Below are positions 3,174 through 36,504 of a stretch of 38,041 nucleotides of DNA, piece after piece. The DNA comes from Clostridia bacterium. GTDB lineage: Bacteria; Bacillota; Clostridia; Oscillospirales; CAG-272. The notes under the pieces are model-generated. The model saw only the letters and a list, made by a program, of their open reading frames with translations, searched no databases and was not told the DNA's origin. The stretch lies in the NCBI GenBank assembly GCA_017407225.1, contig JAFQWY010000325.1, positions 1 through 38,041 of the forward strand, written 5' to 3'. How positions within the stretch are numbered: position 1 is the stretch's first letter; each line of letters starts with the position of its first letter. The position numbers and the translations under genes were made by a program.

Positions 3174-3179
3174 TACAAA

Positions 3180-3225
3180 AACACCGTTTACCGTGGTCTC
3201 AGCCATGATAAACGGTGTTCTTTTT
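3180..3225. terminator. bidirectional intrinsic terminator
   Basis: AACACCGTTTA (3180-3190) pairs with TAAACGGTGTT (3209-3219). CTTTTTCTT follows on the plus strand and an A-run precedes on the minus-strand side, so it can end both the XRE operon and the convergent decarboxylase operon. Confidence 0.85.
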
Positions 3226-3226
3226 C

Positions 3227-21885: not shown

Positions 21886-21946
21886 CACCATTGAGGATGC
21901 CAAAAGGCTGAATCGACCAATGAATCATCGGAGGAATTCTATCAAG

Positions 21947-22366
21947 ATGGAAAACAGAAATCAAAGCAATTCCCCCCGCGACCGGATCGACGATGCGCTT
22001 CTGATCCGGCTGCTGAATGAAGAAGAACCCATGCCGGAATATACCTGTACCGGTGAACGCCGGAATCCCGCAGGCTCCTGCAGATCTTCACGCAGCACCG
22101 CAGGAAGAAGCGGCAGATATGATTCCCATGAACACCGGAATTCCGGCTGCGGATGTGAAGCTGCACGCGAACGCAGGGATTCCGACTGCGGATGTGCGGA
22201 TCTCCGTACACTTCGAGGATATCCGCTTGCCATGGTATACGCCCCGGATCACGAATGGGATGACATGTATGATGAAGAGGAAGCTCTGAGCCGCGGTACG
22301 CTGTTCCGTCCGCTGGATCTCCCCTTCTATCCCGGAAAATGCGGCGGCAGCTGCGGATGCAGATAA
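21947..22366 (+). CDS. cotJA: spore coat-associated protein CotJA, with an Arg/Cys/Gly-rich N-terminal extension
   Basis: A 139-residue protein. The C-terminal ~50 residues carry the CotJA core: YPLAMVYAPDHEWDDMYDEE (about 92-111), then ALSRGTLFRPLDLPFYPGK and a CGGSCGCR tail. Typical CotJA is much shorter; here the first ~85 residues are an extra hydrophilic region rich in Arg, Ser, Gly and Cys, including two NSGCGCEAARERR / DSDCGCADLR repeats (about 65-87), plausible for disulfide or metal cross-linking in the coat. GGAGG (21930-21934) precedes ATG 21947 by 12 bases. First gene of cotJABC; cotJB follows after 10 bases. Confidence 0.85.
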   Translation: MENRNQSNSPRDRIDDALLIRLLNEEEPMPEYTCTGERRNPAGSCRSSRSTAGRSGRYDSHEHRNSGCGCEAARERRDSDCGCADLRTLRGYPLAMVYAPDHEWDDMYDEEEALSRGTLFRPLDLPFYPGKCGGSCGCR

Positions 22367-22376
22367 GGAGAACAGG

Positions 22377-22643
22377 ATGAACGATCAGAAAAAACTGCAC
22401 AGAATGATCCAGAATTACGCCTTCGCCCTCCAGGAAACGGTGCTGTATCTGGATACCCACCCTCACTGCCGTCAGGCTCTGCAGTATTACAGAAAAATCC
22501 GCGACAAGCTGCTTGAGGCAACCCGGATGTATGAGGAGCATTACGGTCAGCTTACCGTCACCGGAGGAACTTCCTGCGACAGCTGGCGATGGGTGGAAGA
22601 AGCATGGCCGTGGGAGCCCGAATGCCGTCAGAAAGGAGACTGA
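22377..22643 (+). CDS. cotJB: spore coat protein CotJB
   Basis: An 88-residue protein matching CotJB throughout: FALQETVLYLDTHPHCRQAL (about 16-35), YYRKIRDKLLEATRMYEEHY and the conserved C-terminus DSWRWVEEAWPWE (about 68-80). CotJB assembles with CotJA and CotJC in the inner coat. AGGAG precedes ATG 22377, and it ends 3 bases before cotJC. Intact and of normal length. Confidence 0.95.
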   Translation: MNDQKKLHRMIQNYAFALQETVLYLDTHPHCRQALQYYRKIRDKLLEATRMYEEHYGQLTVTGGTSCDSWRWVEEAWPWEPECRQKGD

Positions 22644-22646
22644 ACC

Positions 22647-22837
22647 ATGTGGATTTACGAAAAGAAGCTCCAGTATCCGGTGAACATCAAGAATCCCAAT
22701 CCCGGACTGGCGAAACTGATCATCTCCCAGCTCGGCGGACCCGACGGTGAACTGGGTGCCTCCATGCGCTATCTGAATCAGCGGTATTCCATGCCCTACA
22801 GAGAAGTCACGGGTATCCTGACCGATGTAGGTACAGA
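22647..22837 (+). pseudogene. cotJC: cotJC 5' part (manganese catalase-like spore coat protein), interrupted by an intervening element
   Basis: Codons 1-63 of cotJC: WIYEKKLQYPVNIKNPNPG, then GGPDGELGASMRYLNQRYSM with the first metal-ligand Glu (residue 35), then LTDVGTE. Homology stops at the GGTACAGA core (22830-22837). The open frame runs on only through about 24 unrelated codons to a stop at 22910. AGGAG precedes ATG 22647. In CotJC the next residues should be E-x-x-H; they appear, in the same frame, at 28005-28016 after the second GGTACAGA copy. Without excision this half cannot form the dimetal site. It is probably a reversibly interrupted gene rather than a dead one, although the 3' end has a second defect (see the 3' part). 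Confidence 0.9.
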
Positions 22838-22854
22838 AGGCACAGGACTGCACA
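22826..22854 (+). repeat. left attachment site (attL): core GGTACAGA plus inner arm
   Basis: Core 22830-22837. The gene-side half reads TGTA and, with GG and TACA, makes TGTA-GG-TACA (22826-22835). The inner arm ACTGCACA lies at 22847-22854 and is the inverse of TGTGCAGT at the right end. GG at 22830-22831 is the likely crossover dinucleotide. Confidence 0.8.
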
Positions 22855-22857
22855 GCT

Positions 22858-24366
22858 TCAGTCATCAGACCACCGGAATTCCCATACCGTCTCCAGTTCG
22901 CACAGTTTGACCGTAACCCGTCCGTCCCCGTATACTGTAATCCGCTCCACCAGATTCTGCCAGAAACCGGTGCTGTCGGTTTTTCCGGCGAGAATCTCCC
23001 GGGCTGTCCGCTGCAGGTGCTCCTCATTCCGTTCCTCTTCGGATGCGGAGAGGTTTTCCAGCCGCTTCTGCAGATTTTCCGCCTCCTGACGGTATCGTTC
23101 CCGGACTCCGTCAAGCTCCGCTTCTGATATGGTTCCGCAGAGAAAAGCCTCCAGTGCCCTCTCCCTCTTTTCGCGGATCCGCTCCAGAGAACGGGTGACT
23201 GCAGCTTTCTCCCGCCCGGTGCCCGAATCCGCCAGCACCTCCCGGATCATTGCATCCCGGTCAAATTCCAGGGACTCCAGCACCGTTCTCAGCATCTCCA
23301 TGGCACAGTCATCCCTCAGCATCCGTCCTACGCTGCAGCCCTGTCTGCTTCCGGTATCACCACCCCTTCCTTCGTATGCCGCCGTACTGCATCCCCATCT
23401 CCGGTAGAATGTTCCGTCCTTCCGCTGTCTGATCCGCGAGATGAAGCGTCCGCCGCACTCACCGCACAGAATTTTTCCCGATAAAGGGTATCTTTGGGAA
23501 GGTGACACCGTGCCGCTGCTCTTTCGGCTCAGACGCTGTTCTTCCGCAGCATTCCACAGTTCCCGGCTGACAATGGGCTCATGATGATTCCGGATGACAA
23601 TCAGGGATTCGGCAGACGGATTGGCTGTCTTTCTGTGAGTCAGATAATCGGGGGTACAGGTCTTTTTCTGGATCAGATCCCCAGCGTATTTTTCGTTTTT
23701 CAGAATTTTCAGAACCGTTCCGGCTGTCCATCGGGTATTCCCAGCAGAAGTGCGGATCCCGGCTTCTTCCAGCTCCCGTGCAATGGCGGATGCTCCTTTT
23801 TTTTCATGAACATATGCCTCGAAAATCCGCTTCACCGTTTCCGCTCCGTCAGGTTCAACAGTGATTTTTCCGTTCCGGACTTCATATCCCAGCAGAGAGT
23901 GGCCGAATACCACGCCCCGTTCCATCTGCCGGGTCTGTCCCCACGTCACTCTCGCGGAGGTTTTCCGGCTTTCCTCCTGGGCAAGGGAGGCCATAATGGA
24001 CAGCCGCAGTTCCGCATCGGGATCCAGTGTGCTGATTCCGTCGGTCAGAAACACCACGCCGACACCGAGACGTTTCAATTCCCTGGTACAGGAAATGGTG
24101 TCCAGAATATTCCGCGAAAACCGGCTGACCTCCTTTGTCAGAATCAGGTCAAAGCATCCCCTGCGTGCATCCTCCATCATCCGGTTGAACTGCACCCGTT
24201 TCTGAGTGGATGTCCCCGTAATGCCGCTGTCCGCATAGATTCCGTACAGGCTCCATTCCGGCTGTCTGCCGATATATTCACGGAAATATCTCTGCTGTGC
24301 TTCAAAGGAATTGGCCTGATCCGTGTGGTCCGTGGAAACCCGGCAGTATCCCGCCGCCCGGATCAT
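22858..24366 (-). CDS. large serine recombinase (site-specific integrase/excisionase)
   Basis: A 502-residue recombinase. Resolvase domain about residues 1-150: AAGYCRVSTD carries the catalytic Ser (residue 11), and FDLILTKEVSRFSRN and LRLSIMASLAQEESRKTS follow. Recombinase domain: FGHSLLGYEV, RIFEAYVHEKKGASAIAREL and WTAGTVLKILKNEKYAG. Zinc ribbon: CGECGGRF with later GCS and GCSVGR cysteines. A C-terminal coiled coil (about 395-460) is typical of large serine integrases. Its stop codon lies 20 bases from the att core, and it reads toward the 5' half of cotJC. The ATG (24366) overlaps the stop of the 48-aa gene. It is the obvious enzyme for insertion and excision of the element. All visible motifs are intact, arguing that it is active. 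Confidence 0.93.
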   Translation of the reverse strand: MIRAAGYCRVSTDHTDQANSFEAQQRYFREYIGRQPEWSLYGIYADSGITGTSTQKRVQFNRMMEDARRGCFDLILTKEVSRFSRNILDTISCTRELKRLGVGVVFLTDGISTLDPDAELRLSIMASLAQEESRKTSARVTWGQTRQMERGVVFGHSLLGYEVRNGKITVEPDGAETVKRIFEAYVHEKKGASAIARELEEAGIRTSAGNTRWTAGTVLKILKNEKYAGDLIQKKTCTPDYLTHRKTANPSAESLIVIRNHHEPIVSRELWNAAEEQRLSRKSSGTVSPSQRYPLSGKILCGECGGRFISRIRQRKDGTFYRRWGCSTAAYEGRGGDTGSRQGCSVGRMLRDDCAMEMLRTVLESLEFDRDAMIREVLADSGTGREKAAVTRSLERIREKRERALEAFLCGTISEAELDGVRERYRQEAENLQKRLENLSASEEERNEEHLQRTAREILAGKTDSTGFWQNLVERITVYGDGRVTVKLCELETVWEFRWSDD

Positions 24367-24509
24367 GTTTTTTTCTCCGCCGCCGTTTTTCGTACCGTTT
24401 CGTCCAGTGCAGATTTCAGAGCCCGCCGGTACAAGCGCAGGAAGCCTTCTATCTTTCCGTCCGGCGGATTTTTGCCGTGTTCCACCCGTATCAGTTTGAG
24501 TTTTCTCAT
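24363..24509 (-). CDS. 48-residue basic protein coupled to the recombinase; candidate directionality factor
   Basis: Reads MRKLKLIRVEHGKNPPDGK, then EGFLRLYRRALKSALDETV and a Lys-rich end. It has a strong ribosome binding site (GGAGGG, six bases before ATG 24509), and its TGA overlaps the recombinase ATG (ATGA), so the two are translationally coupled. The protein is small, basic and mostly helical, with no recognised domain. Small genes next to serine integrases often encode excision directionality factors; that role here is a guess from size and position. It could equally be a leader that sets recombinase translation. Confidence 0.6.
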   Translation of the reverse strand: MRKLKLIRVEHGKNPPDGKIEGFLRLYRRALKSALDETVRKTAAEKKT

Positions 24510-24562
24510 GCAAAGCCCTCCGTTCCTCCTTCATTCCTATGAAAAACCGAAGCCTTACATGA

Positions 24563-24598
24563 CAAAAACAGCGGCAGGACCGTGATCCCGACCGCTGT
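24563..24598 (-). terminator. terminator of the Crp/Fnr-type gene
   Basis: On the minus strand ACAGCGG (24598-24592) pairs with CCGCTGT (24574-24568), followed by TTTTGTC. It separates the Crp gene from the recombinase operon. Confidence 0.75.
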
Positions 24599-24604
24599 GT
24601 GATG

Positions 24605-25264
24605 CTATAACAGGATAAACTCGTTTTTGTCGCTCTCCAGAATCCCCTCTTTCCGCAGCTTGCTGATTTCAGCCGACAGTCCGCTCCGGTCGACCTCCAG
24701 AAAATCCGCCAGTTCCTGACGGTCAAAAGGAATCTCAAACCGGTTCCCCCCGGCTTTCTTCGCCTGAAACATCAGGTAGGTCAGCAGTTTATCCCGTGTG
24801 GTACGCTTGGAGATGATCTCGATTTTCTGATGGAACAGGATTGTTTTTGTGGCAAGATCCTTCATCAGATTGAAGATCAGCTGCTGATGAAATCCGCAGT
24901 GATTGCTGCAGGTATGCAGAATATGACTGCAGTCGATGAGCATGATTTCACAGGGCTCGTTTGCAATCACCGTGACGGGAATTGACGGTGTTTCCGCACA
25001 GGCGAACGCTTCCCCGAATACCTCTGCGGTACCGGCTTCCGTCAGAATGCTCCGGTTTCCGTAATAGTCGATTCTTATGATCTGAACGGAGCCGGCCAGC
25101 ACAATTCCGATGTATCTGGCAGGATTCCCCTCGGCGATGACGGTGTATTTTTTATCGAAGGACTCCACCCTTGCCCCCAGACACACCAGCATCCGGAACA
25201 GATCGTCTTCTTCAATCCCATCAAACAGAGGGCACTCCTGCAAAATTTTCTGATATTTTTTCAT
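24605..25264 (-). CDS. Crp/Fnr-family transcriptional regulator
   Basis: A 219-residue protein. The N-terminal cyclic-nucleotide-binding-type beta roll (about 15-125) includes YTVIAEGNPARYIGIVLAGS and EVFGEAFACAETPSIPVTV. A long dimerisation helix and a C-terminal winged helix follow: TRDKLLTYLMFQAKK, FDRQELADFLEVDRSGLSAE (recognition helix, about 178-197) and KLRKEGILE. The phosphate-binding residues of cAMP-type Crp are not evident. Several cysteines occur (for example DCSHILHTCSNHC), so redox or metal sensing is possible but unproven. It is divergent from ferritin, with a perfect palindrome between them, and probably controls both. GAGG precedes ATG 25264. Confidence 0.88.
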   Translation of the reverse strand: MKKYQKILQECPLFDGIEEDDLFRMLVCLGARVESFDKKYTVIAEGNPARYIGIVLAGSVQIIRIDYYGNRSILTEAGTAEVFGEAFACAETPSIPVTVIANEPCEIMLIDCSHILHTCSNHCGFHQQLIFNLMKDLATKTILFHQKIEIISKRTTRDKLLTYLMFQAKKAGGNRFEIPFDRQELADFLEVDRSGLSAEISKLRKEGILESDKNEFILL

Positions 25265-25278
25265 AATTTTCCTCAGTT

Positions 25279-25294
25279 TGTTGAAAATTCAACA
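25279..25294. promoter_or_regulatory. palindromic operator between the crp-type and ferritin genes
   Basis: TGTTGAAAATTCAACA is an inverted repeat with 7-base arms (TGTTGAA / TTCAACA). It lies 15 bases before the regulator start codon and just upstream of the ferritin -10 (TATACT 25311-25316 or TATAAT 25316-25321). Size and arm spacing fit a Crp/Fnr-family dimer site. Confidence 0.7.
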
Positions 25295-25368
25295 GATTTT
25301 TCAGAATTATTATACTATAATAGGATCAGAAAATCAAGAACCAAATTCACTCATACATGGAGGTTTCT

Positions 25369-25881
25369 ATGCTTAACACAAAGGTACACGAGCTTCTCAA
25401 CAGCCAGATCAACAAGGAATTCTACTCCGCATACCTGTATCTGGAATTCTCCAACTATTTCAAGGCAAAGGGCCTGGACGGATTCGCAAACTGGTACATG
25501 ATTCAGGCGCAGGAAGAAAGAGATCACGCAATTCTGTTCTATCAGTATCTGCAGAATAACAACATGCCCATCACCCTGGAAGCCATCGGCAAGCCCGAAA
25601 CCGGTTTTGAAGACAGCATGGCAGTTCTCAAGGCAGGCCTGAAGCATGAGCTTTACGTAACCTCCCTCATCAACGATATTTACGCAGCCGCTTATGAAGT
25701 AAAGGATTTCCGCACCATGCAGTTCCTCGACTGGTTCGTTAAGGAACAGGGCGAAGAAGAAACCAACGCAAACGATCTGATTTCCAAGATGGAGCTGTTC
25801 GGCTCCGATCAGAGAAGTCTGTATATGCTCAACCAGGAGCTGGGAACCCGGGTTTACACCGCTCCTTCCCTCGTACTCTGA
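25369..25881 (+). CDS. ftnA: ferritin (iron storage, ferroxidase type)
   Basis: A 170-residue four-helix-bundle protein. Ferroxidase-centre residues are visible: NKEFYSAYLYLEFSNYF (Glu about 17), MIQAQEERDHAILFYQYL (about 45-62, E-x-x-H), and the later helix with LDWFVKEQGEEETNA (about 122-136). Length matches bacterial non-haem ferritin, with no haem-ligand Met in the BFR position that I can identify. The start at ATG 25369 follows GGAGG by five bases; an in-frame ATG at 25357 overlaps the ribosome binding site. It is probably co-transcribed with the Bfd-like gene 30 bases downstream and controlled by the divergent Crp/Fnr-type regulator. It lies inside the cotJC element. Confidence 0.95.
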   Translation: MLNTKVHELLNSQINKEFYSAYLYLEFSNYFKAKGLDGFANWYMIQAQEERDHAILFYQYLQNNNMPITLEAIGKPETGFEDSMAVLKAGLKHELYVTSLINDIYAAAYEVKDFRTMQFLDWFVKEQGEEETNANDLISKMELFGSDQRSLYMLNQELGTRVYTAPSLVL

Positions 25882-25911
25882 ACCATTCCATAAACCGTAC
25901 AGGAGGCTGTC

Positions 25912-26121
25912 ATGCAGGAAAACTACACTGTCTGTAAGTGCAAAAAGGTAACCTACAGTGATATCGCGGACGCGCTTCACAAGATGCAGAAGCTCAGCGA
26001 TGTTCTGGATGCGTTCGAAGATGTGAAAAAAGTCACCCACTGCTCCACCGGATGCGGCGGCTGTCACGACAAGGTGATCGACATCATCTCAAAAATCATG
26101 ATGGGTCACGAAGATAAATAA
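25912..26121 (+). CDS. Bfd-like [2Fe-2S]-binding protein
   Basis: A 69-residue protein with the BFD/(2Fe-2S)-binding domain cysteine pattern: VCKCKKVTY (C-x-C at about residues 8-10) and CSTGCGGC (about 44-51; C-x4-C spacing with an extra Cys). In other bacteria Bfd donates electrons to release iron from bacterioferritin; here it is directly downstream of a ferritin gene, suggesting a matching role with this ferritin. GGAGG precedes ATG 25912. A hairpin terminator follows. Confidence 0.85.
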   Translation: MQENYTVCKCKKVTYSDIADALHKMQKLSDVLDAFEDVKKVTHCSTGCGGCHDKVIDIISKIMMGHEDK

Positions 26122-26129
26122 ACGATGAA

Positions 26130-26173
26130 AATACCTCCTTTCCCGTCGATCCGGCGGGTCGGGAGGTATTCTT
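26130..26173. terminator. bidirectional terminator after the ferritin-bfd unit
   Basis: AATACCTCC (26130-26138) pairs with GGAGGTATT (26162-26170), with further CCCG/CGGG pairing inside. It separates this unit from the convergent MBL gene. Confidence 0.8.
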
Positions 26174-26174
26174 G

Positions 26175-26798
26175 TTACAGCTTGAATTCCACCCGGATTC
26201 CGGCATCCACAAGGGATGCAAAAACCTCGCCGTCTCCGGGATCCCCCGCAAGAGTTCCGTAATGGGTGGGAATGACGCAGGCAGGCTTCATTTTGTTGAC
26301 CAGTGCGGCGGCTTCTTCCGGATTCATGGTGTAGGTTCCGCCGATGGGAAGCATGGCAATCCCGCACTGAACTTCAGCGGCTTCGGAAGTGGCATCCATG
26401 TCGCCGCCGATATAGATCCGGACACCGTGCACCGTAATGACGTAACCCAGCCAGCCGTTCTTCTTCGGATGCATGGGCTTGTTCGTGTTGTAGGAGGGTA
26501 CCGCTTCCACGGGAATTCCTCCCACAATTTTCGTCTCTCCCGGTGTCATGGTGATGATATCCTTCAGTCCTGCGCCGGCCGCATCCTGCTTCATGGATTC
26601 CGGCATCACGTAAACCGTACCGGGCCGGGCGATTTTTCCGATGTCTTCCGGTGAAAAATGGTCGAAATGGGAGTGAGTGATAAAAACAATGTCCCCGTCA
26701 TGGGGTTCGTTTTCCACCCGGAAAGGATCGATGTACAGAATTTTCTCCGCCTCAATGCGGATACTGCTGTGGGTGTTGACAGTAATTCTCTCGGTCAT
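26175..26798 (-). CDS. metallo-beta-lactamase-fold hydrolase (UlaG-like)
   Basis: A 207-residue MBL-fold protein. Motif 2 FITHSHFDHFSPEDI (about residues 39-53) holds the H-x-H-x-D-H set. YIGGDMD (about 129-135; Asp) and IPTHYGTLAGDP (about 180-191; His) supply the remaining ligands. The short length and the N-terminal THSSIRIEAEKILYIDPF are typical of UlaG-like hydrolases rather than nucleases. Third gene of the DUF2200-SDR-MBL operon, 27 bases after the SDR. Substrate unknown. Confidence 0.85.
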   Translation of the reverse strand: MTERITVNTHSSIRIEAEKILYIDPFRVENEPHDGDIVFITHSHFDHFSPEDIGKIARPGTVYVMPESMKQDAAGAGLKDIITMTPGETKIVGGIPVEAVPSYNTNKPMHPKKNGWLGYVITVHGVRIYIGGDMDATSEAAEVQCGIAMLPIGGTYTMNPEEAAALVNKMKPACVIPTHYGTLAGDPGDGEVFASLVDAGIRVEFKL

Positions 26799-26825
26799 GG
26801 CGTATTCCTTTCATTTTATAATATA

Positions 26826-27539
26826 TCATTTCCGGTCGTCATAGGTCCATCCGCAGTCGTTGTGATAGATCATGAGCTTTGTCATGCCGCCGTCGATGCA
26901 GATGTTTTCCCCCGTGATGAAGCCTGCTTTGTCAGACGCAAGATACAGCACCATATTGGCAATATCCATGGGATTCCCTACCCGGCCCGCAGGCTGCTGG
27001 GAGGCATCGGGACCTTCATATACCGTATATGCCGTGTCAATCCATCCGGGAGAGATGGAGTTTACACGGATTTTTCCGCTGAAGCTGACTGCCATGGCAT
27101 GGGTCAGTGCGGCAATTCCTCCTTTCGCCGCCGTATAGCTTTCTGTCTGGGGCTGACTCATCCGGTCGCGGCTGGAGGAAATATTGATAATACTGCCACC
27201 CGGGGAAAAATAAGGTGCGAACAGCTTTGAGAGATAGAAAGGTGCTGTCACACCGACTGCCAGAGCATACTGGAATTCCTCATAGGTGCATCGGTCGATT
27301 CCTCTCATGATGGGCAGTGCATTGTTCACCAGCACGTCGATGTGCCCTTCTTTTTCGATCACCTGTGCCGCAAAATCCTCCATGGTCACCTTTTCGGCGA
27401 TATCTCCGATGTAGAAATGGTCTCCGTCGGCTCTGTCGATCACATACACCCGTGCGCCGTTTTCACGGAACTGCTCCGCGATGCATTTTCCGATCCCGTT
27501 TGCACCGCCGGTCACTGCAACTACTTTATTCCGAAACAT
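26826..27539 (-). CDS. short-chain dehydrogenase/reductase (SDR)
   Basis: A 237-residue classical SDR. Rossmann cofactor motif VVAVTGGANGIGKCIAEQF (TGGxxGIG, about residues 7-25), VLVNNA (about 69-74), catalytic Ser region INISSSRD (about 118-125), SYTAAKGGI (about 134-142, Y-x-x-x-K) and NSISPGWIDT (about 159-168). The acidic residue in VYVIDRADGD after beta-2 suggests NAD preference. The gene abuts DUF2200 directly upstream with no gap. Substrate unknown. Confidence 0.9.
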   Translation of the reverse strand: MFRNKVVAVTGGANGIGKCIAEQFRENGARVYVIDRADGDHFYIGDIAEKVTMEDFAAQVIEKEGHIDVLVNNALPIMRGIDRCTYEEFQYALAVGVTAPFYLSKLFAPYFSPGGSIINISSSRDRMSQPQTESYTAAKGGIAALTHAMAVSFSGKIRVNSISPGWIDTAYTVYEGPDASQQPAGRVGNPMDIANMVLYLASDKAGFITGENICIDGGMTKLMIYHNDCGWTYDDRK

Positions 27540-27896
27540 TCATTTTCCCCTTTCCAGAATCTTTTCCATTGTTTTCCCCTTAGCCAGCTCGTCCACCAGT
27601 TTGTCCAGATACCGGATTTCCAGCATCAGCGGATCCTCAATGCTCTCAAGCTTTACGCCGCATACCGAGCCTTTGATCAGCCGCCGCTTTTCATTGGGAG
27701 CCGGCATATTCCGGAAGAAATCACCGTAGGTGAGATCGCCTGTCAGAAATGACTCTATTTCATCGGCGGTATATCCGGTCAGCCAGCAGGTAAGCTCCAG
27801 CACCTCCGCCCGGGTTCTGGATTTTTTCTCCGCCTTGGCAATCAGAAGCGGAAATACTCCGGCAAACGGCATATTATAGATCTTTTCGTTCGGCAT
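27540..27896 (-). CDS. DUF2200 family protein
   Basis: A 118-residue protein matching DUF2200 from end to end: KIYNMPFAGVFPLLIAKAEK (about 5-24), RAEVLELTCWLTGYTADEIE, IKGSVCGVKLESIEDPLM (about 76-93), and the C-terminal YLDKLVDELAKGKTMEKIL. Function of the family is unknown. GGAGG lies seven bases before ATG 27896. An upstream in-frame ATG at 28043 would cross the att site and lies within cotJC, so it is rejected. First gene of an operon with SDR and MBL genes. Confidence 0.88.
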   Translation of the reverse strand: MPNEKIYNMPFAGVFPLLIAKAEKKSRTRAEVLELTCWLTGYTADEIESFLTGDLTYGDFFRNMPAPNEKRRLIKGSVCGVKLESIEDPLMLEIRYLDKLVDELAKGKTMEKILERGK

Positions 27897-27927
27897 CCGT
27901 TGTCCCTCCCTCTCTGTTGATACCATC

Positions 27928-27956
27928 AGTATACCACAGATATCCCTGTATTGCAA
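27928..27956 (-). promoter_or_regulatory. promoter of the DUF2200-SDR-MBL operon
   Basis: On the minus strand TTGCAA (27956-27951), a 17-base spacer and TATACT (27933-27928), 31 bases before ATG 27896. It lies wholly inside the element. Confidence 0.7.
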
Positions 27957-27971
27957 TAGCGGAACGGGGAT

Positions 27972-28003
27972 TGTGCAGTTCATTGTGAGCCTGTCGGTAC
28001 AGA
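27972..28003 (+). repeat. right attachment site (attR): core GGTACAGA plus inner arm
   Basis: Core 27996-28003, with TGTC immediately before it. The inner arm TGTGCAGT (27972-27979) is the inverse of ACTGCACA at the left end. Distances from the GG crossover to the arms are 16 bases here and 15 bases on the left. Confidence 0.8.
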
Positions 28004-28340
28004 GGAACTTGCACATCTCGAGATGGTTGCCGCCATCATTCATCAGCTGACCCGGAATCTTTCCGAGGATGATATCAAAAAATCAGGATTCGATGTCTAC
28101 TTCGTGGATCACACCACGGGAGTCTATCCGGTATCCGCTGCAGGTGTCCCCTTTGACATCAAATATATCGGAGTCAAAGGAGATGTCATCGCCGATCTGA
28201 ACGAAGATCTGGCTGCCGAGCAGAAGGCGCGTGTCACCTACGACAATCTGCTCCGCCTCATCGACGACCCGGATGTATGCGATCCCATCAAGTTCCTGCG
28301 CGAGCGTGAAGTGGTGCATTACCAGCGTTTCGGTGAAGCG
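27996..28340 (+). pseudogene. cotJC: cotJC 3' part, with its own extreme 3' end lost
   Basis: Continues the 5' part in frame: GTEELAHLEM (E65, H68 in the joined numbering), DVYFVDHTTGVYPVSAAGVP, DLNEDLAAEQKARVTYDNLL (E136) and FLREREVVHYQRFGEA (H169). All five manganese-catalase ligands (E35, E65, H68, E136, H169) are present after joining. Homology ends at Ala176 (28340); the expected last 15-25 residues are missing. The frame stays open through unrelated sequence to TAA at 28698-28700, giving a 295-residue joined product with a ~119-residue foreign tail. A terminator-like hairpin (28569-28605) lies within that tail, so a terminated transcript would lack a stop codon. Whether the joined protein works is therefore uncertain. 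Confidence 0.88.
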
Positions 28341-28568
28341 AACCGGACGAAGTTAAGTGGATTTTCCGCTGAAAATGGGAATACATGCGATATCATCGCC
28401 GGTATATTTCTCGTGGACGATTTCACTTTTCTGACCGACGTGCAGATTCTGAGATACACAGAAGCGTTCGGTCCCATGTTCTTAAAAAGTTACAGTTACG
28501 GGCAGAAAATTTCCGCAAAATCTTCCGGGAAGATTATTCCTGCGCGGCTGATTGACGGCAAACCCAAG

Positions 28569-28605
28569 AGTACAGGAACATCGCGGAAATGTCCTGTACT
28601 TTTTA
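28569..28605 (+). terminator. intrinsic terminator downstream of cotJC 3' part
   Basis: AGTACAGG-A-ACAT pairs with ATGT-CCTGTACT (28569-28600) with one bulged base, followed by TTTTTATA. Confidence 0.8.
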
Positions 28606-28624
28606 TATGGTTTCGCTTTATTCA

Positions 28625-28900
28625 GTTTCAGCCGATTTGTATCGCAGCCATGGCAAACGGATCGAGAGTGAGCGTGACTTTCCCACCGACGCCCGCATAA
28701 TCGGAGAGGTTGTGTCCGAAAGTGTCGGACGAGAAGTCAATCCGGATAGAGTCGGGATCTATGTTGAAAAGTTCACCCAGGTGTACAGGATATAACGGGA
28801 CAGGGATTCGCCGTTCGGCATGTTCTTTTCGGTCCATGGGAAAGCGGAAATTTCCCATCTGCCCCCGTGGATGCGTAGATTGATTTCGGTCTTGTTGAGC
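28625..28900 (-). pseudogene. frameshifted C-terminal remnant of an unidentified protein
   Basis: On the minus strand one frame reads NKTEINLRIHGGRWEISAFP and continues to RYILYTWVNFST before a stop. The neighbouring frame then continues protein-like as PVHLGELFNIDPDSIRIDFS, GHNLSDYAGVGGKVTLTLDP and ends FAMAAIQIG. The composition is that of a beta-rich C-terminal domain, as in glycoside hydrolases, cut by a frameshift and lacking its 5' part. I do not recognise the family. Confidence 0.4.
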
Positions 28901-29004
28901 CGGTTTTCATCAGCTTTCTTCTCTTCCTGTAATAAAGTATCCCCTGCCGTTCTTCTTTATTTTTTGTAATAATCCCTGAAATCGACTAAAGAATACAAAC
29001 AGGA

Positions 29005-29033
29005 TTGACATTTTTCGCCGCAGAGTGTACAAT
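29005..29033 (+). promoter_or_regulatory. sigma-A promoter of the Gfo/Idh gene
   Basis: TTGACA (29005-29010), 17 bases, TACAAT (29028-29033). Confidence 0.85.
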
Positions 29034-29036
29034 GTA

Positions 29037-29076
29037 GATAAAAAACACACTGCTGCTGCATCCAGCAGAACGGAGG
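29037..29076 (+). promoter_or_regulatory. 5' leader hairpin abutting the ribosome binding site (copy 2)
   Basis: GATAAAAAACACACTGCTG (29037-29055) differs by one base from the leader at 13540-13558. The stem is CTGCTG (29053-29058) / CAGCAG (29063-29068) with loop CATC, followed by GGAGG (29072-29076). The stem sequence differs from copy 1 but still pairs. Confidence 0.5.
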
Positions 29077-29081
29077 TTATT

Positions 29082-30152
29082 ATGGCATACAAACTCGGCA
29101 TCATCGGTTACGGCGGCATGGCGGGAGGATATCACATTGGCACGGTACGGCGTGAAGACATTCCTTTTGAACCCGCTGCGGCTTTCGACATTGATCCCGC
29201 ACGTCTTGCGGAGGCGGAAAAGGCGGGATTGAAAGCATACAGCAATCTTGACGACTTCCTTGCACATGAGGGCGGATATGATCTCGTTCTCGTTGCAACG
29301 CCGAACAATTATCACTGCGAAATGGCATGCCGTACAATGGAAGCAGGATTCAACGTCATGTCCGAAAAGCCGGTGGCTATATCCTCGGATGAGCTTCAGA
29401 AGATGATCGACACGTCCGAAAAGTGCGGAAAACTGTTCACAGTCCACCAGAACCGCCGCTGGGACCGCGATTTTGTCATGATCAGGCAGGCGATCGCAGA
29501 AGGTGCTGTCGGCAAGCCCTACATGATTGAATCCCGGATTCAGTCTCCCAACGGCAATGGCGATATGTACAACTGGCGCGGCATGAAGGACCACGGCGGC
29601 GGCATGCTCCTCGACTGGGGTGTACACCTGCTTGACCAGCTGCTCTGGCTCATCAAGGAACCTGTCAAATCCGTCTCTGCCAATGTCTTCCCTCTCTGGT
29701 CGGAGGAAGTGGACGACTACTCCAAGGTTATCATCACCTTCGAAAGCGGTCTCGTCGCGCAGATGGAAGTTGTGACCTACTCTCCCATTGCACTTCCCCG
29801 CTGGATGGTTTACGGTGACCGCGGTGCGATGACAATGCAGGACGCAGGCGACGCCAAAATCAAGGTCCGCCGCATCAAAAAGGACGAAAACGTTGTCATC
29901 GACGTTCCGGCGTATGTTGACCACAGGATGATCACCCGCAAACAGAAGCGTCACTTCATCGAAGAATTTGAGGAATTTGAAGCACCTGAAACTGTGCCGA
30001 ACAACGACTGGGGCTCGGTTTACAAGAATCTCGCAGGTGTTCTCGCCGGTACGGAAGAGCTGATTGTCAAGCCCGCCGAAGTGATGCGTACATTCCGTGT
30101 CATTGAAGCCGCATTCAAGTCCGCAGAAGAAGGTGTGACCGTACGGTTCTGA
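29082..30152 (+). CDS. Gfo/Idh/MocA-family NAD(P)-dependent dehydrogenase
   Basis: A 356-residue oxidoreductase. N-terminal Rossmann fold with LGIIGYGGMAGGYH (about residues 4-17; GxGxxG-like), LVLVATPNNYH (about 70-80), and the family signature MSEKPVAISSDEL (about 96-108), where E-K-P carries the catalytic lysine. The C-terminal alpha/beta domain contains GGGMLLDWGVHLLDQLLWL (about 179-197), with the conserved D-x-x-x-H. Members oxidise or reduce sugars and inositols; substrate is unknown. ATG 29082 has GGAGG five bases upstream. It is likely the head of a transcription unit that once included the following ABC exporter. Confidence 0.9.
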   Translation: MAYKLGIIGYGGMAGGYHIGTVRREDIPFEPAAAFDIDPARLAEAEKAGLKAYSNLDDFLAHEGGYDLVLVATPNNYHCEMACRTMEAGFNVMSEKPVAISSDELQKMIDTSEKCGKLFTVHQNRRWDRDFVMIRQAIAEGAVGKPYMIESRIQSPNGNGDMYNWRGMKDHGGGMLLDWGVHLLDQLLWLIKEPVKSVSANVFPLWSEEVDDYSKVIITFESGLVAQMEVVTYSPIALPRWMVYGDRGAMTMQDAGDAKIKVRRIKKDENVVIDVPAYVDHRMITRKQKRHFIEEFEEFEAPETVPNNDWGSVYKNLAGVLAGTEELIVKPAEVMRTFRVIEAAFKSAEEGVTVRF

Positions 30153-30201
30153 TTGAAGCCGCCGGTACAGTCCGATTTCAACAGGAAAGGACGGGACTCC
30201 C

Positions 30202-31638
30202 ATGTTCCTTTTCGATCACCTGCAGATGCTTCCGTTCACGTATTACGACAGCCGCCCCCACGGCAAGATTCTCGTCCGCGTGGTCAACTACGTCAACAAC
30301 GTCTCCGACTCGCTCACAAACGGTCTTGTCAATGCGATTCTCGAGCTTCTGAACATCTTCTTCATCGCGGGCTACATGTTCTCGATCAATGTTCAGCTCT
30401 CGCTCATCATTCTCTCGGGCATGCCGCTTCTTCTGGTGTTCGTGTTCCTTCTGAAAAACGCACAGAAGAAGGCGAATTTTGCCTACAACAACAAGAACTC
30501 CAACCTGACCGCGTACACTTGCGAAGCCATCGAAGGCGTCAAGGTTTCGCAGATCTTCCGGCGGCAGGACGAGAACCAGAAGATTTACGACGATCTGAAC
30601 CACCAGTATCAGAAGGCGTGGTACAAGATGGCGTATCTCAACAACATCATGGCTCCCGTCACGGAAAACCTGAAGCAGTGGGTGCTGTGTCTGGTTTACA
30701 TCGCGGGCATCCTGTGGGTCTCTCCGTCCATTGAAATCGGCGTCCTCATCGCGATGGCAACGTATGCCTCCAAGTTCTGGCAGCCGGTCATCAGCCTTGC
30801 GAACATCTACAACAATCTGCTCAAGACCATGTCCTATCTCGAGCGCATCTTCCAGACCATCGACGAGCCGATTGATATCGGGGATGCACCGGATGCCAAG
30901 CCCCTTCCCGACATGCAGGGCAAGGTTGAATTCAAAGATGTCCGCTTCGCTTACGAAAAGGACTACTACGTGCTCAACGGCGTCGATCTCACTGTGGAAA
31001 AGGGTCAGCGCATCGCCCTCGTCGGTCCGACAGGTTCCGGCAAATCCACCATCGTCAACCTCATCAGCCGCTTCTACGATGTAACCGAAGGCAGTCTCCT
31101 GATCGACGGCGTGGATATTCACGACATCACGCTCAACTCGCTCCGTTCCCAGATGGGCATCATGCTTCAGGACAGCTTCATTTTCACCGGAACGATTGCG
31201 GACAACATCCGCTACGGCAAGCTGGATGCGACCGATGAGGAAATCCGTGCCGCAGCAAAAGCAGTCTGTGCCGATGAATTCATCTCCGAGATGGAGGACG
31301 GCTACAACACCCATGTCACCGAGCGCGGCGGAATGCTTTCACAGGGTCAGCGTCAGCTCCTTGCGTTTGCGCGCACGATGGTTTCCGATCCCGCGATTCT
31401 GATTCTGGACGAAGCCACTTCTTCAATCGATGCGAAAACCGAAAAGCTCCTCCAGCAGGGCATCGAAAATCTCATGGAAAACCGGACATCGTTCGTCATC
31501 GCGCACCGCCTCTCCACCATCCGCAGCTGTGATAAAATCCTGTATATCGACGGCGGCAAAATCGTGGAATCCGGCACACACGACGAACTGATGGCGAAAA
31601 AGGGACACTACTACCGTCTCAGCACGGCACAGAGCTGA
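30202..31638 (+). pseudogene. ABC exporter (permease-ATPase fusion), N-terminally truncated
   Basis: A 478-residue open frame. The C-terminal ATPase is complete: Walker A VGPTGSGKST (about 274-283), Q-loop GIMLQDSFIFTG, signature LSQGQRQLLAFAR, Walker B ILILDEATSSID and switch IAHRLST. The membrane half starts abruptly at MFLFDHLQMLPFTYYDSRPH, which corresponds to about residue 110-120 of normal 580-620-residue exporters, so the first two transmembrane helices are missing. An AGGAAAGGA lies near ATG 30202, so a product may still be made, but it would lack part of the channel. Only 49 bases separate it from the Gfo/Idh gene, placing the deletion there. The heterodimer partner usual for this family is not present. 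Confidence 0.8.
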
Positions 31639-31658
31639 GTTTTTCAAGAGGAAATCCT

Positions 31659-31709
31659 ATGTATTTCAATGCTGAAACATATCAGCTGATTTCGGACTAC
31701 TCTCTCTGA
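31659..31709 (+). pseudogene. truncated 5' end of a lost gene (16 codons)
   Basis: ATG 31659 is preceded by AGAGGAAA at a normal distance, and reads MYFNAETYQLISDYSL then TGA. It follows the ABC exporter by 20 bases as an operon member would. The sequence after it is unrelated, so it is probably the stump of a gene cut by the rearrangement that left the IS remnant. Confidence 0.4.
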
Positions 31710-31769
31710 TGTGCTTTACATCCAAGTGCGGGTTTTCCATACTGCAATCCACTCTCTGTTCATACCAAA

Positions 31770-31816
31770 ACGACCGGGTCATCCTTTTTGGGGACAGCCC
31801 GGTCGTCCTGTTTTTG
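31770..31816. terminator. strong bidirectional terminator
   Basis: ACGACCGGG (31770-31778) pairs with CCCGGTCGT (31798-31806), with further pairing inside. CCTGTTTTTG follows on the plus strand and TTTTGG on the minus strand. Confidence 0.8.
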
Positions 31817-31829
31817 TGCAACTACGCTT

Positions 31830-32213
31830 ATGACGATAAATTACCATATATTTTATCTGTGCTTTCCCATCCTTCCTGTGAGCAAAAGAAAATCCCGCAT
31901 CAGCTTGTTTTCCATTTCCAACTGTCTGATCAAGGCATCTTTTCCGGCCATTTTTATCGAAGATCCGAACATCTGTCATCTTCGGTAACGACAGTTTTTT
32001 TGCGGGACGCCCCCTTTCGGGGATTGCTATTCCTGCTTCCAGGTTTCGCTGGCGTTCATTATATGCACAGAAGAATTCCTTGATTTGCTGCTTGCTATAT
32101 CCTGACACCTCACCCATTTCTCGATGTGTATGCCCTTGCTTTTTCATTTCCAGCAATTCTTTTTCAAACTGCATTACTCTCTTGGCATAGAAACGCCCTC
32201 CTATGTTTTTCAT
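31830..32213 (-). mobile_element. IS3-family insertion sequence remnant (orfA frameshifted, orfB stump)
   Basis: The reading begins GGRFYAKRVMQFEKELLEMK, then QGHTHREMGEVSGYSKQQI (helix-turn-helix) and ERGRPAKK, the typical start of an IS3-group OrfA. After DVRIFDK the frame is lost. The adjacent frame continues MAGKDALIRQLEMENKLMRD and FLLLTGRMGKHR, the leucine-zipper end of OrfA. A following KYMVIYRHK is the start of an OrfB, cut after a few codons. No catalytic DDE region remains, so it is dead. The first bases on the minus strand beyond the gene (TGGGCACAGC, about 32240) may be the original terminus; the other end is lost. Confidence 0.75.
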
Positions 32214-32304
32214 TATACTATAGGAAGTTTTGCTGTGCCCAGAAAATACCGGCGCATAAAGCACTACGAGAAAGAAAACAAATAGCAGAAAAGCCTCATA
32301 AAAA

Positions 32305-33147
32305 TCAATTTCTGTTCGATGATGCTGTCCGTTCCCGGTATTCGCCGGGGGTCATCCCGGTCAGACGCCTGAACATGACGATGAAGGAAGAAGCCTGTGT
32401 GAATCCGCATCGTTCCGCAAGCTCTGAGACGGGAACCCCTTCCATGAGCCACGTTTTTGCCAGAGATATCCGAACCGCTGTGATATATTCATGCAGGGAC
32501 AGGTTGGTGACAAGGCGGAAATCGCTGTACAGCTTCGTTCTGCTGACAAAGAAAATCTCCGACAGATTATCTACGGTAAGATTCTCCGATATGTGATTGA
32601 CAATATAATACATGACGTCCTGTATGTACGGCTGTGTGCTGATGTGCTTGAAGAGGACTTTATCGGAAAGATCGCTCACTTTCCCGAAAATCGCAGCCAG
32701 AAGCCCGATGGAGGTGTGGTTCATCAGATTGCTGTCCGCGGTCTGATACTGCTCGTTCAGAAGATCCAGAAGAGGGCGGAACGTGCCTAACTGCTCATCC
32801 GTGACAGGAATAATATATTCGTTCACATTGTGGAAATTGCCCATGGATATGATCCCGTCGTACACGGTAAAGAGATAGGGGTTGATATCCAGCTTATACC
32901 GGATATAGGTATCACTGCATAATGTATTTGAGGAATGCAATGTAAACGGTGCGCGGTATACGATATACGGTGTATTGGTTTCATATACATGACCGCTGAT
33001 GGAATGTCGGATCGGGATATGGGAGAAATTGAACATCAGCTCATGATGTGTATGCATATGCTCCGCATTCATCGCAAAACCGTTCGTTTTCACTTCCGCG
33101 ATTCTCCAGGTATCCACTAAATAAATCCAATATGACATATCCAGCAT
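32305..33147 (-). CDS. AraC-family transcriptional regulator
   Basis: A 280-residue protein. The N-terminal cupin-like sensor has HMHTHHELMFNFSH (about residues 30-43) and a beta-rich region to about 120. The C-terminal ~100 residues hold the two AraC helix-turn-helix units: LTVDNLSEIFFVSRTKLYSD (about 190-209) and VSELAERCGFTQASSFIVMF (about 239-258), then RRLTGMTPGEYRE. It is complete. It is divergent from the solute-binding protein gene, with direct repeats in the shared promoter region, as expected for control of a sugar-uptake operon. The sugar is unknown; neighbouring genes suggest a plant or host polysaccharide breakdown product. Confidence 0.9.
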   Translation of the reverse strand: MLDMSYWIYLVDTWRIAEVKTNGFAMNAEHMHTHHELMFNFSHIPIRHSISGHVYETNTPYIVYRAPFTLHSSNTLCSDTYIRYKLDINPYLFTVYDGIISMGNFHNVNEYIIPVTDEQLGTFRPLLDLLNEQYQTADSNLMNHTSIGLLAAIFGKVSDLSDKVLFKHISTQPYIQDVMYYIVNHISENLTVDNLSEIFFVSRTKLYSDFRLVTNLSLHEYITAVRISLAKTWLMEGVPVSELAERCGFTQASSFIVMFRRLTGMTPGEYRERTASSNRN

Positions 33148-33205
33148 AGGACGCTTTTCTCCCGTAAAAATGTACGAATTCTATATTGATTATACCATAT
33201 AACTT

Positions 33206-33258
33206 ACATTATGTAAACACTTGCCGATGGATTTTTGGTATAATACACTATGTAAACA
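33206..33258 (+). promoter_or_regulatory. solute-binding protein promoter with 14-base direct repeats (candidate AraC sites)
   Basis: ACAyTATGTAAACA occurs at 33206-33219 and 33245-33258, 39 bases apart, flanking a -10 TATAAT (33239-33244) that lacks a good -35. The first copy also overlaps the near-palindrome TTACATTATGTAA (33204-33216). A weak -35 with flanking repeats fits an activator-dependent promoter under the divergent AraC gene. Confidence 0.5.
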
Positions 33259-33272
33259 AGGAGAAAGTCAGC

Positions 33273-33846
33273 CTGAAGAGAAACCTGACGCTTGTTCTCG
33301 CCTTTTTGATGCTTCTCACATCCTGCGCTCCGGCATCGCAGACAGAACCGGAAGAAACCAAGAAAACCCAGAGCACCCAGGACACCACGGAAACCCAGAA
33401 TCCGGAAACTGTACCCGAAGAGACTGTCCCCGAGGAAACCGAACCTCCCATTCCCGCTGATAAGCTTCCGGATGATCTGAACTTCGACGGAGCAACCTTC
33501 CAGACGATCTCCCGCCTGAAGTCGCACTATCACGGTGAGATGTTTATTTTTGAATCCACCGGTGAATCCCTCAACGACGCGCGCTGCAACGCCACAAACA
33601 AGGTTGCAGACCGGCTCAATATTGTCCCGAAGGAAGACTATTACGGACTGATCGACTATTCCGACAATGACCTGCCCCGCACCTATCTGCTCGCCGGCGA
33701 CACAACCTACGATCTGTACAACGGCCGTGCCTCCTCCATTGTCACCTATGCATCGGAACATTACCTCCAAGCTGGCAGCCAAGCACAAGATTTGGCAGAG
33801 CAAGCTGGACTCCATGAACGCAGGATTCGGAAAAACCGAAGAATAA
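33273..33846 (+). pseudogene. extracellular solute-binding lipoprotein gene with a large internal deletion
   Basis: The N-terminal part reads KRNLTLVLAFLMLLTSCAP, a signal peptide with lipobox LLTSC, then a Thr/Glu/Pro-rich linker and the start of a family-1-type binding protein (DLNFDGATFQTISRLK, LNDARCNATNKVADRLNI, TTYDLYNGRASSIVTYASEH). At about 33763 the homology jumps into another frame, which reads SKLAAKHKIWQSKLDSMN and ends GFGKTEE with TAA at 33844-33846, the typical C-terminus of such proteins. About 350 internal residues are thus missing and the frame is shifted. The only start well placed after AAGGAG (33258-33263) is CTG at 33273; no ATG, GTG or TTG fits. Almost certainly non-functional. 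Confidence 0.75.
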
Positions 33847-33902
33847 GTTTCCGGAATCTGCAAAAGATCGAAACCGACTCAGAACGGACAAGGAGGATTC
33901 AC

Positions 33903-34655
33903 GTGATTGATTTTGAACGGCTGGACTTGTTTGAAGAATATACCGATGAAAAAACAGGAGTCAGGAGCTATATCCTGAACGAAAAACCTGCGGAATACGT
34001 GCAGAGCTTTTATTTCACCAATCAGTCCCTCTCGGATGATCAGAAATATCTGTGGATGTACTGCTTCTATCCGCCGCTGCGCCATCATTCTCTGGGCGTT
34101 GTAAGTCTGGATCCCGAGAATCCCTTTGTCCGTGTTTTCAAAGAGGCAGTCGTTCATGCTGCCACCCCACTGGTTGCACCGGAAGGAGGCAGGGTATACT
34201 TTGTGGATGGCTATACCGATGCGGCACAGATCTGCACCATTGATGTAAACGGAAACATCGAGTTGTCTGCACGGATGGATCCGGGCTGCATCGGCAAAAA
34301 AGCGATCAGCCGCTTCGGAACCCATCTGTCCATTTCCGCTGACGGCAGGTATATGCTCGTGGACGGTATGTTCAGCACCTTCGGCTTTGCCGCACTTGTG
34401 GATATGGAAACCCGCGAGTTCAAGGTCATCAACGAGTACGAGGGAATGCACAATCACGGACAGTTCTCACCGGTTCATCCCAAGCTGTTCCTGCTGGATC
34501 AGGATACCTCCATCAACCCGATTACAGAGTACCATCTCGATCCGCATCCCCAGTTCACGAGGGACGGCAGATACATTGTCTGCACAACGACGGTAAGAGG
34601 CGGAGTCGATATTTCAGTCACACCCGTGGATCAGCTTGTTGCGCTGACACAATGA
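33903..34655 (+). CDS. oligogalacturonate lyase-like / beta-propeller protein, shorter than its family
   Basis: A 250-residue protein starting at GTG 33903, with AGGAGG six bases upstream. Blade-like repeats are visible: SLSDDQKYLWMYCFYPP, GGRVYFVDGYTDAAQICTID, HLSISADGRYMLVDGMFS and TRDGRYIVCTTTVRGGVDIS. The pattern, and INPIT before a HLDPHPQF stretch, recall PL22-type oligogalacturonate lyases, but those are usually near 390 residues. The jump from SINPIT to HLDPHPQF may mark an internal in-frame deletion of roughly 130 residues, so activity is doubtful. If the family call is right it points to pectin breakdown. The stop overlaps an ATG in the next gene. Confidence 0.5.
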   Translation: MIDFERLDLFEEYTDEKTGVRSYILNEKPAEYVQSFYFTNQSLSDDQKYLWMYCFYPPLRHHSLGVVSLDPENPFVRVFKEAVVHAATPLVAPEGGRVYFVDGYTDAAQICTIDVNGNIELSARMDPGCIGKKAISRFGTHLSISADGRYMLVDGMFSTFGFAALVDMETREFKVINEYEGMHNHGQFSPVHPKLFLLDQDTSINPITEYHLDPHPQFTRDGRYIVCTTTVRGGVDISVTPVDQLVALTQ

Positions 34656-34702
34656 ATCCGAACAACAGAAAATTTCACCTTGTCATGAGAGGAGACCTGA
34701 AA

Positions 34703-36166: not shown

Positions 36167-36216
36167 TTGTATGAACCGCTGTACCAACAGTGTTTACTGC
36201 AGTCCACCGCAATGCA

Positions 36217-36272
36217 AAACGGAACTCTCCTGCTGCAAAACAGCTCGGCAGGAAAGTTCCGTTTGTGTTTTT
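36217..36272 (+). terminator. intrinsic terminator of the glycoside hydrolase operon
   Basis: AAACGGAACT pairs with AGTTCCGTTT, and inner CCTGC pairs with GCAGG. GTGTTTTTC follows. Confidence 0.8.
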
Positions 36273-36437
36273 CAAATCGATTCTCCGCAGCCGGTCACAG
36301 TTCTGCCATAGGATTACCGGCTTCCGTTATGCTTCAGAAACTGTGTAACAGCTTCTCATCCTCATTGGTTTTCACGGTACGGACAGCCGCAGAATACTCC
36401 GCAATACCCGAAAGAAAAAATGTTTACAATTCCCCTG

Positions 36438-36479
36438 TTGACAAATACGGCGCTGAACAATATAATGATGAACAGTTCA
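36438..36479 (+). promoter_or_regulatory. consensus promoter and candidate MarR operator
   Basis: TTGACA (36438-36443), 17 bases, TATAAT (36461-36466). The near-palindrome TGAACAGTTCA (36469-36479) covers the expected start of transcription, a usual position for MarR autorepression. Confidence 0.8.
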
Positions 36480-36504
36480 GATTTGAAATATCGGAGAATA
36501 ATGT

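Follow-up and report, generated by a model that had tools for sequence, protein, structure and literature searches.

A probable skin-like element splits the spore-coat gene cotJC of a Clostridia bacterium, and breaks of the same gene recur among its relatives

The spore-coat gene cotJC of a Clostridia bacterium (Oscillospirales, CAG-272) is interrupted after codon 61 by a block of 5,166 bp which carries its own large serine recombinase (LSR). The interrupted gene lies on a contig of 38,041 nucleotides (JAFQWY010000325.1, positions 1 to 38,041 of the forward strand; assembly GCA_017407225.1), and this whole stretch is referred to as the window. Comparison with related genomes strongly supports a skin-like site-specific element in cotJC, which is very probably excised in the mother cell to rebuild the gene. 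Excision as such, the control of its direction and its timing in the mother cell are steps that we infer from sequence. A first-pass annotation of the window had proposed a skin-like element at this place. The anatomy of the attachment (att) sites, the LSR clade, near full-length cotJC genes in relatives and signs of selection uphold this proposal, and the element is one instance of an order-wide pattern rather than an isolated event.

CotJC is encoded by a coat gene of the manganese-catalase type, and its catalase or coat function is presumed. The gene is located downstream of cotJA (21920..22366, plus strand, Pfam CotJA), the first gene in the coat operon, and cotJB (22377..22643, plus strand, Pfam CotJB with E=4.6e-27). 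Expression of cotJ takes place in the mother cell. Alignment to full-length orthologues of relatives assigns codons 1-61 to 22647..22829 (piece 1) and codons 62-176 to 27996..28340 (piece 2), both on the plus strand. As the first-pass annotation had it, each break coincides with a copy of GGTACAGA (22830..22837 and 27996..28003, plus strand); the copies are 5,166 bp apart, and joining the flanks yields LTDVGTEELAHLEM, an in-frame junction whose reading frame stays open through codon 176. No further exact copy of GGTACAGA exists in the window. The chance expectation is a mean of 0.57 copies, and two or more are reached in 8 of 100 shuffles of the 38 kb, so that the repeat by itself is weak and the case rests on the comparison with relatives. 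In these, cotJC breaks at the same codon next to an LSR of the same clade, and judged by this comparison the interruption is beyond chance. The genome also encodes SpoIVA, which suits a spore former.

The LSR of 502 aa (22858..24366, minus strand) was correctly placed by the first-pass annotation just inside the left copy: it is convergent with piece 1, with 20 bp between the left core and the end of its stop codon at 22858. The Pfam domains Resolvase (7.2e-30), Recombinase (1.7e-24) and a zinc ribbon (5.8e-6) were recognized on the longer open frame. The window LSR was aligned with five LSRs from relatives; five of these six proteins come from loci with the codon-62 break and one (L085) from a genome with the C-part only. 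A scan of named genomes with this alignment confirmed at least 570 stretches, of which the best 80 were kept, and 75 of these best 80 loci contain a cotJC match, mostly broken at the same codon. Together with the six starting loci they form a set of 86, in which L034 duplicates L151. Of 68 N-terminal fragments in this set, 48 are located at most 500 bp from the LSR 3′-end, the others being several kilobases away or differently arranged. Elements lying whole within the fetched loci have lengths of 3.4-9.7 kb, a range biased to small elements since the loci comprise at most about 21 kb; the cotJC pieces in 16 genomes described below imply spans of up to about 43 kb. In many loci of L093-L171, the LSR frame extends about 42 bp into cotJC in antisense direction, so that excision would alter the last LSR codons.

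In L033, L037 and L045, the codon-62 break has an LSR of another lineage at it or close by. The one in L033 (genome G023) is so divergent that the single-sequence search missed it, and only an iterated profile recovered it. Separate alignments were made for the LSRs of the codon-136, codon-175 and codon-30 groups. In the order sample, the codon-136 group comprises 23 loci, 16 with a cotJC match; the nine top-ranking loci all have one, as do 12 of the top 13, the exception being the tenth (L275). For the codon-175 group, 52 matches were obtained and 30 loci fetched, of which 11 contain a cotJC match, and for the LSR of this group in the window genome itself the cotJC end lies outside its short locus. 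LSR and cotJC are thus strongly associated in the codon-62 group and, within the codon-136 group, among its close members; in the codon-175 group the association is partial.

At the codon-62 break, the dinucleotide GG is kept at all mapped ends (69 left, 31 right), and the left copies elsewhere vary (GGTAGAGA, GGTAGTGA, GGTATATC and similar). Since GG is constant while the rest of GGTACAGA varies, GG is favoured as the crossover, putatively at 22830-22831 and 27996-27997 in the window, and the whole of GGTACAGA is ruled out in this role. The break in L045, a locus with an LSR of another lineage, shows no GG at codon 62, and the GG rule is therefore restricted to the clade of the window's LSR. 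Inverted arms around a 2-bp crossover are the layout expected for the attP site of a serine integrase. In 18 two-ended loci the element arms form inverted repeats around GG, with a mean best 14-nt match of 11.2 compared to 7.9 for shuffled arms (highest shuffle mean 8.6). The element-side arm of the window (22838..22857), whose inverted and imperfect counterpart lies left of 27996, scores 11 of 14, and the arms of L151 read GTCATTTTGACCCTTCTGTA-GG-TACAGAAGGGTCAAAATGA. Symmetry is weakest in L113 (7) and in L114, L129 and L137 (9 each), at or near the level of the shuffles.

A protein of about 60 aa is encoded directly upstream of the LSR in 78 of the 86 loci (77 of 85 without the duplicate), often with overlapping stop and start codons; five loci are without one and three end too close to it. 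Its counterpart in the window is an open reading frame (ORF) of 48 aa overlapping the LSR start (24363..24509, minus strand). We regard this small protein as a candidate recombination directionality factor (RDF). The window ORF gave no Pfam or PHROG match, and searching the profiles of Pfam and PHROGs with eight small proteins, and those of NCBIfam with four, brought up no convincing family, the best E-value being 0.0085 to a PHROG of unknown function.

Promoters of sigma-E and sigma-K have the tetramer CATA as their -10 core. CATA is present 25-36 nt before the small-protein start in 52 of 75 loci and in 42 of 62 non-redundant loci, with starts assigned by script and doubtful in a few cases (L140, L143, L164, L166). 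No other of the 256 tetramers is as frequent as CATA in this region of the 62 non-redundant loci; as a control, CATA was found in 32 of 409 other ORFs of the same loci preceded by a ribosome-site-like motif. A sigma-E-like two-box score of at least 10 is reached in 37 of 75 loci, compared to 7.1 loci on average in shuffles. The looser pattern CATA...GAGG occurs upstream in 48 of 80 cotJC-linked loci, and in LSR loci from viral contigs in 7 of 11 with a cotJC match versus 6 of 66 without. In the window, a promoter-like TCATGTA-N14-CATA (24538..24562, minus strand) places CATA 32 nt before the small ORF, with a match no better than chance at a position in line with the family. Across the clade, CATA upstream of this two-gene unit may point to its control by the mother cell. 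In the other LSR groups, a crude search for a small ORF with CATA was mixed (site 3, 4 of 11; site 4, 3 of 6; site 1, 0 of 4; the denominators being loci with the LSR frame read, out of 12, 7 and 4), so the promoter claim is limited to the codon-62 clade. Distinct small ORFs of their own, some with CATA, were seen upstream of LSRs at the codon-136 (L254, L257, L258, L260) and codon-175 (L276-L280) sites; they are perhaps lineage-specific directionality factors.

The joined CotJC protein was compared with 59 related genomes, of which 46 matched, with near full-length genes as well as fragments with the same break positions. A wider sample covered the order that contains Pseudoflavonifractor (Oscillospirales in GTDB, family Oscillospiraceae in NCBI), and cotJC matches were detected in 161 of its 197 genomes. 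Classification was confined to the 139 genomes whose best match listed reached at least 55% identity; genomes with only short fragments (e.g. G033) lie outside this number. Near full-length orthologues were found in 85 of the 139 and truncated ones in 54. The first-pass annotation had named the lack of any uninterrupted cotJC in related strains as a finding that would speak against a skin-like element, and the search of relatives which it proposed has brought up both uninterrupted genes and recurrent breaks at the same codon. All but two of the truncated orthologues (52 of 54) start at codons 20-30 or 50-63 or end at codons 137-141 or 175-182; these four intervals were chosen after inspection of the data with contig ends not excluded individually, and the last could be mimicked by natural C-terminal divergence. 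Two breaks within one match were seen in seven genomes. By analogy with known manganese catalases, we take E35, E65, H68, E136 and H169 to be the di-manganese ligand codons. The break positions would thus be at or near metal-ligand codons, which fits recombinases picking the most conserved DNA.

Several genomes carry more than one break. In all of 16 genomes picked by hand from the best 80 LSR loci, the cotJC orthologue was found in pieces only, two of them additionally having a distant paralogue with 36-37% identity, and five have three or more pieces. Intestinibacillus massiliensis (L145) carries four collinear pieces on one contig (C34, 195.6-271.2 kb), which implies three elements in one gene, and Lachnospiraceae bacterium 3-2 has three collinear pieces on a single scaffold. 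In L075 (genome G015), an insert of about 0.4 kb without a recombinase gene was observed at codon 175 (about 3120-3700), adjoining a codon-136 element; it is possibly a non-autonomous or decayed element.

The window genome itself has a second break. Past codon 176 (28340) its frame diverges from the full-length orthologues into unrelated sequence, the break lying at GGTGAAGCG in codons 174-176 (28332..28340, plus strand). Using the C-terminus of a relative as query, the missing end was located on contig C156 of the same genome, where ALRTAQDHMDSRNFYGYNPAFDRSMPNWKHNK is followed by a stop and GGCGATGCG precedes it in place of GGTGAAGCG. A frameshifted or naturally different C-terminus is ruled out by this end and by similar breaks in relatives. 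A second LSR of another lineage is encoded on C156 about 1.9 kb beyond the cotJC end. On sequence grounds, cotJC of this genome is in three pieces, and the second, larger intervening region is only partly visible, since the contigs end: it starts at 28341, runs off the window at 38041 and putatively has its other end on C156. By eye, the genes at 28341-38041 resemble those of an ordinary chromosome (Gfo/Idh-like, ABC transporter, AraC-like regulator, alpha-galactosidase-like, MATE-like). The earlier claim that excision restores cotJC is thus borne out in part: removal of the 5,166 bp would rejoin codons 1-176 in frame, and with the second break at codons 174-176 it would leave the gene incomplete.

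The halves of split cotJC genes are under purifying selection. The strongest evidence is provided by two pairs of loci with similar cargo, in which the nonsynonymous (dN) and synonymous (dS) rates of the C-half are 0.000/0.427 (L103-L107) and 0.008/0.387 (L132-L104); for L127-L151, with cargo not compared, they are 0.000 and 0.191. Among pairs with dS below 1.5, the median dN/dS of the C-half is 0.178 for split (79 pairs) and 0.176 for full-length genes (43 pairs), and that of the N-half 0.187 (353 pairs) and 0.206 (52 pairs), respectively; these pairs are non-independent, part of the split set consists of fragments truncated where a fetched locus ends, and some of the insertions could have happened recently.

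Taking these data together, the 5,166-bp block would have entered cotJC at its conserved codons 62-64 by means of its own LSR. Throughout vegetative growth the element would remain integrated and cotJC interrupted. During sporulation, mother-cell sigma factors would turn on the small protein and LSR unit, and with the small protein acting as RDF, the LSR would recombine attL with attR at GG. The circle would be lost with the dying mother cell, leaving cotJC in frame, and the spore would retain the element. With the second element of another LSR lineage at codons 174-176, two excisions would be needed in the window genome. It is also probable, with a good deal more reserve than for the single element, that cotJC of gut Clostridia is spliced at several places at the DNA level: at least four sites, at active-site codons or close to them, would be used by different LSR lineages with different candidate directionality proteins, and all elements would be excised in one mother cell.

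Several observations weigh against developmental excision by a dedicated element. The rejoined cotJC junction was searched for in the assembly of the window genome and not found, and a search of viral contigs with one circular att pattern found none. The small ORF of the window is short and divergent from its family, and the promoter match before it scores 9.4, no more than expected by chance (shuffles reach 9 in 37.8 and 9.5 in 19.1 of 75 loci on average). Among the best 80 LSR loci, five are without a cotJC match, and in some others (e.g. L139, L140, L143, L145, L162) cotJC is far off or otherwise arranged. Some genomes show only a single cotJC fragment (e.g. G034, G036, G056), via incompleteness or real loss. 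The LSR on C156 is oriented away from the cotJC end, unlike those of the same-group loci L276 and L278-L280, so something may be inserted or inverted there. Finally, LSR distances follow those of CotJC to a weak or moderate degree, with r=0.17 in the N-part, a value equalled or exceeded in 9 of 2000 permutations, and r=0.52 in the C-part, which none of 2000 reached, so that the elements were in part inherited and in part moved horizontally; purely vertical inheritance is unsupported by these values.

The cargo of the element bears on the first of the alternatives. Besides the LSR and the small ORF, it encodes a Crp/Fnr-type regulator (24605..25264, minus strand), a ferritin (25357..25881, plus strand, Pfam 2.1e-35), a BFD-like [2Fe-2S] protein (25912..26121, plus strand), a metallo-beta-lactamase-fold protein (26175..26798, minus strand), an SDR oxidoreductase (26826..27539, minus strand) and a DUF2200 protein (27540..27896, minus strand, Pfam 1.5e-42; start taken from the Pfam match, open frame to 28043), all assigned by Pfam. 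Among the seven element ORFs scanned, Pfam detected no phage structural or replication families, in agreement with the iron-storage and metabolic cargo described in the first-pass annotation. The cargo of relatives is, by eye, mostly metabolic.

Plain mobile elements, either prophages or their remnants, might use a conserved gene as attB and leave an inactivated, dispensable cotJC behind. This is unlikely, and it draws on the patchy distribution of breaks within a genus, on the genomes with one fragment only, and on the convergence of LSRs on one gene known from other work (PMC10083194). Moreover, a cotJC-like match is present in 11 of 80 LSR loci from viral contigs, 8 of them at 50% identity or more, so some relatives of the LSR may be prophages. 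Against mere inactivation stand the purifying selection on detached C-halves in loci with similar cargo (dN 0, dS 0.43), the similar C-half medians of split and full-length genes, the small elements without phage genes (by Pfam in the window, by eye in relatives) and the conserved promoter motif of developmental type.

Reversible on/off switching of cotJC in vegetative cells, i.e. phase variation instead of developmental excision, has only a small chance of being correct. It has a precedent in the yin element in yabG, which is reported to have been both integrated and excised in one culture at every sampled time (PMC10747680); in the cotJC elements, the CATA that precedes the genes of small protein and LSR speaks for regulation by the mother cell, and the rejoined form is absent from the assembly. 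That the pieces function as separate polypeptides without rejoining is very improbable: piece 2 does have a long open frame with in-frame ATG codons inside it, but the breaks fall at or near codons of presumed metal ligands, and their sites differ between genomes. An artefact of metagenome binning and assembly, which 375 contigs and 5.72% contamination might suggest, is hardly credible given the same breaks in named isolates and long scaffolds (Lachnospiraceae bacterium 3-2, Intestinibacillus massiliensis).

Developmental excision of a skin-type element from cotJC therefore is the explanation we prefer, and its meaning reaches beyond the window. The gene-intervening elements of sporulation described in the literature consulted are isolated examples, found in Bacillus, Geobacillus and a small number of Clostridium-type species. 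In commensal gut Clostridia a single coat gene has been hit again and again: the sites are fixed, the recombinase lineages differ, and one gene sometimes holds several elements. If excision holds true, comparison between genomes can address why such elements persist, how they are linked to mother-cell development and how the direction of excision is set. The loci also supply recombinases together with their natural att sites and candidate directionality factors. Genome annotation may label cotJC as broken or absent in spore formers able to rebuild the gene.

A parallel outside spore formers is given by the cyanobacterial fdxN and nifD elements (XisF), which are excised from heterocyst genes in terminal cells. 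The logic of terminal-cell excision is shared, and XisF is the best NCBIfam match of the window LSR, which with 112.4 bits falls outside the XisF family by the curated cut-off of 375; the genes concerned belong to heterocysts and not to spores.

According to the source passages seen, published sporulation elements split sigK, spsM, spoVFB, spoVR, gerE and yabG (PMC4191935, PMC5595907, PMC5025042, PMC10747680). The SPbeta element in spsM, with the LSR SprA and SprB as likely RDF (PMC4191935), vfbin in spoVFB and vrin in spoVR resemble the cotJC element in that excision rebuilds a sporulation gene, but they are prophages or prophage-like, and the passages do not mention multiple elements in one gene. 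The yin element in yabG of Clostridium botulinum V73 is likewise an LSR element in a coat-related sporulation gene with integrated and excised forms, but is described as prophage-like and unique to one strain (PMC10747680). The gin element in gerE of Bacillus cereus ATCC10987 is a non-phage element with the serine recombinase GirC and the 42-aa factor GirX, rearranged during sporulation (PMC5595907); with 28.6 kb, three recombinases and another target gene it differs from the cotJC element. The skin element in sigK of Bacillus subtilis and Clostridioides difficile shares the serine recombinase inside an element splitting a mother-cell gene, the short att repeats and, in C. difficile, a small RDF (LSR CD1231 with the 72-aa CD1234, PMC5025042). 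In contrast to skin, the cotJC element splits the gene of a coat enzyme and not of a sigma factor, has no phage genes seen in its 5 kb, encodes the small protein directly upstream of the LSR and belongs to a group with several elements per gene.

For the CotJC family itself, prophage phi027 of Clostridioides difficile R20291 has its attR beside the CotJC homologue CDR20291_1465 (cotG) (PMC11222575, PMC12122855). It is integrated, excises spontaneously and its influence on spores is discussed; the passages seen describe it as adjacent to the gene, with no splitting or rejoining, and it is by this description, not by sequence, that we set it apart. A splitting and rejoining of cotJC was not found in the literature searched (titles, abstracts and, in part, open-licence text). 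Contact of a prophage with the CotJC family (phi027) and the convergence of LSRs on single genes (PMC10083194) are already in print; what is new is that breaks recur across the order and at four sites, that several LSR lineages and more than one element per gene are involved, and that a family of small proteins goes with the LSRs.

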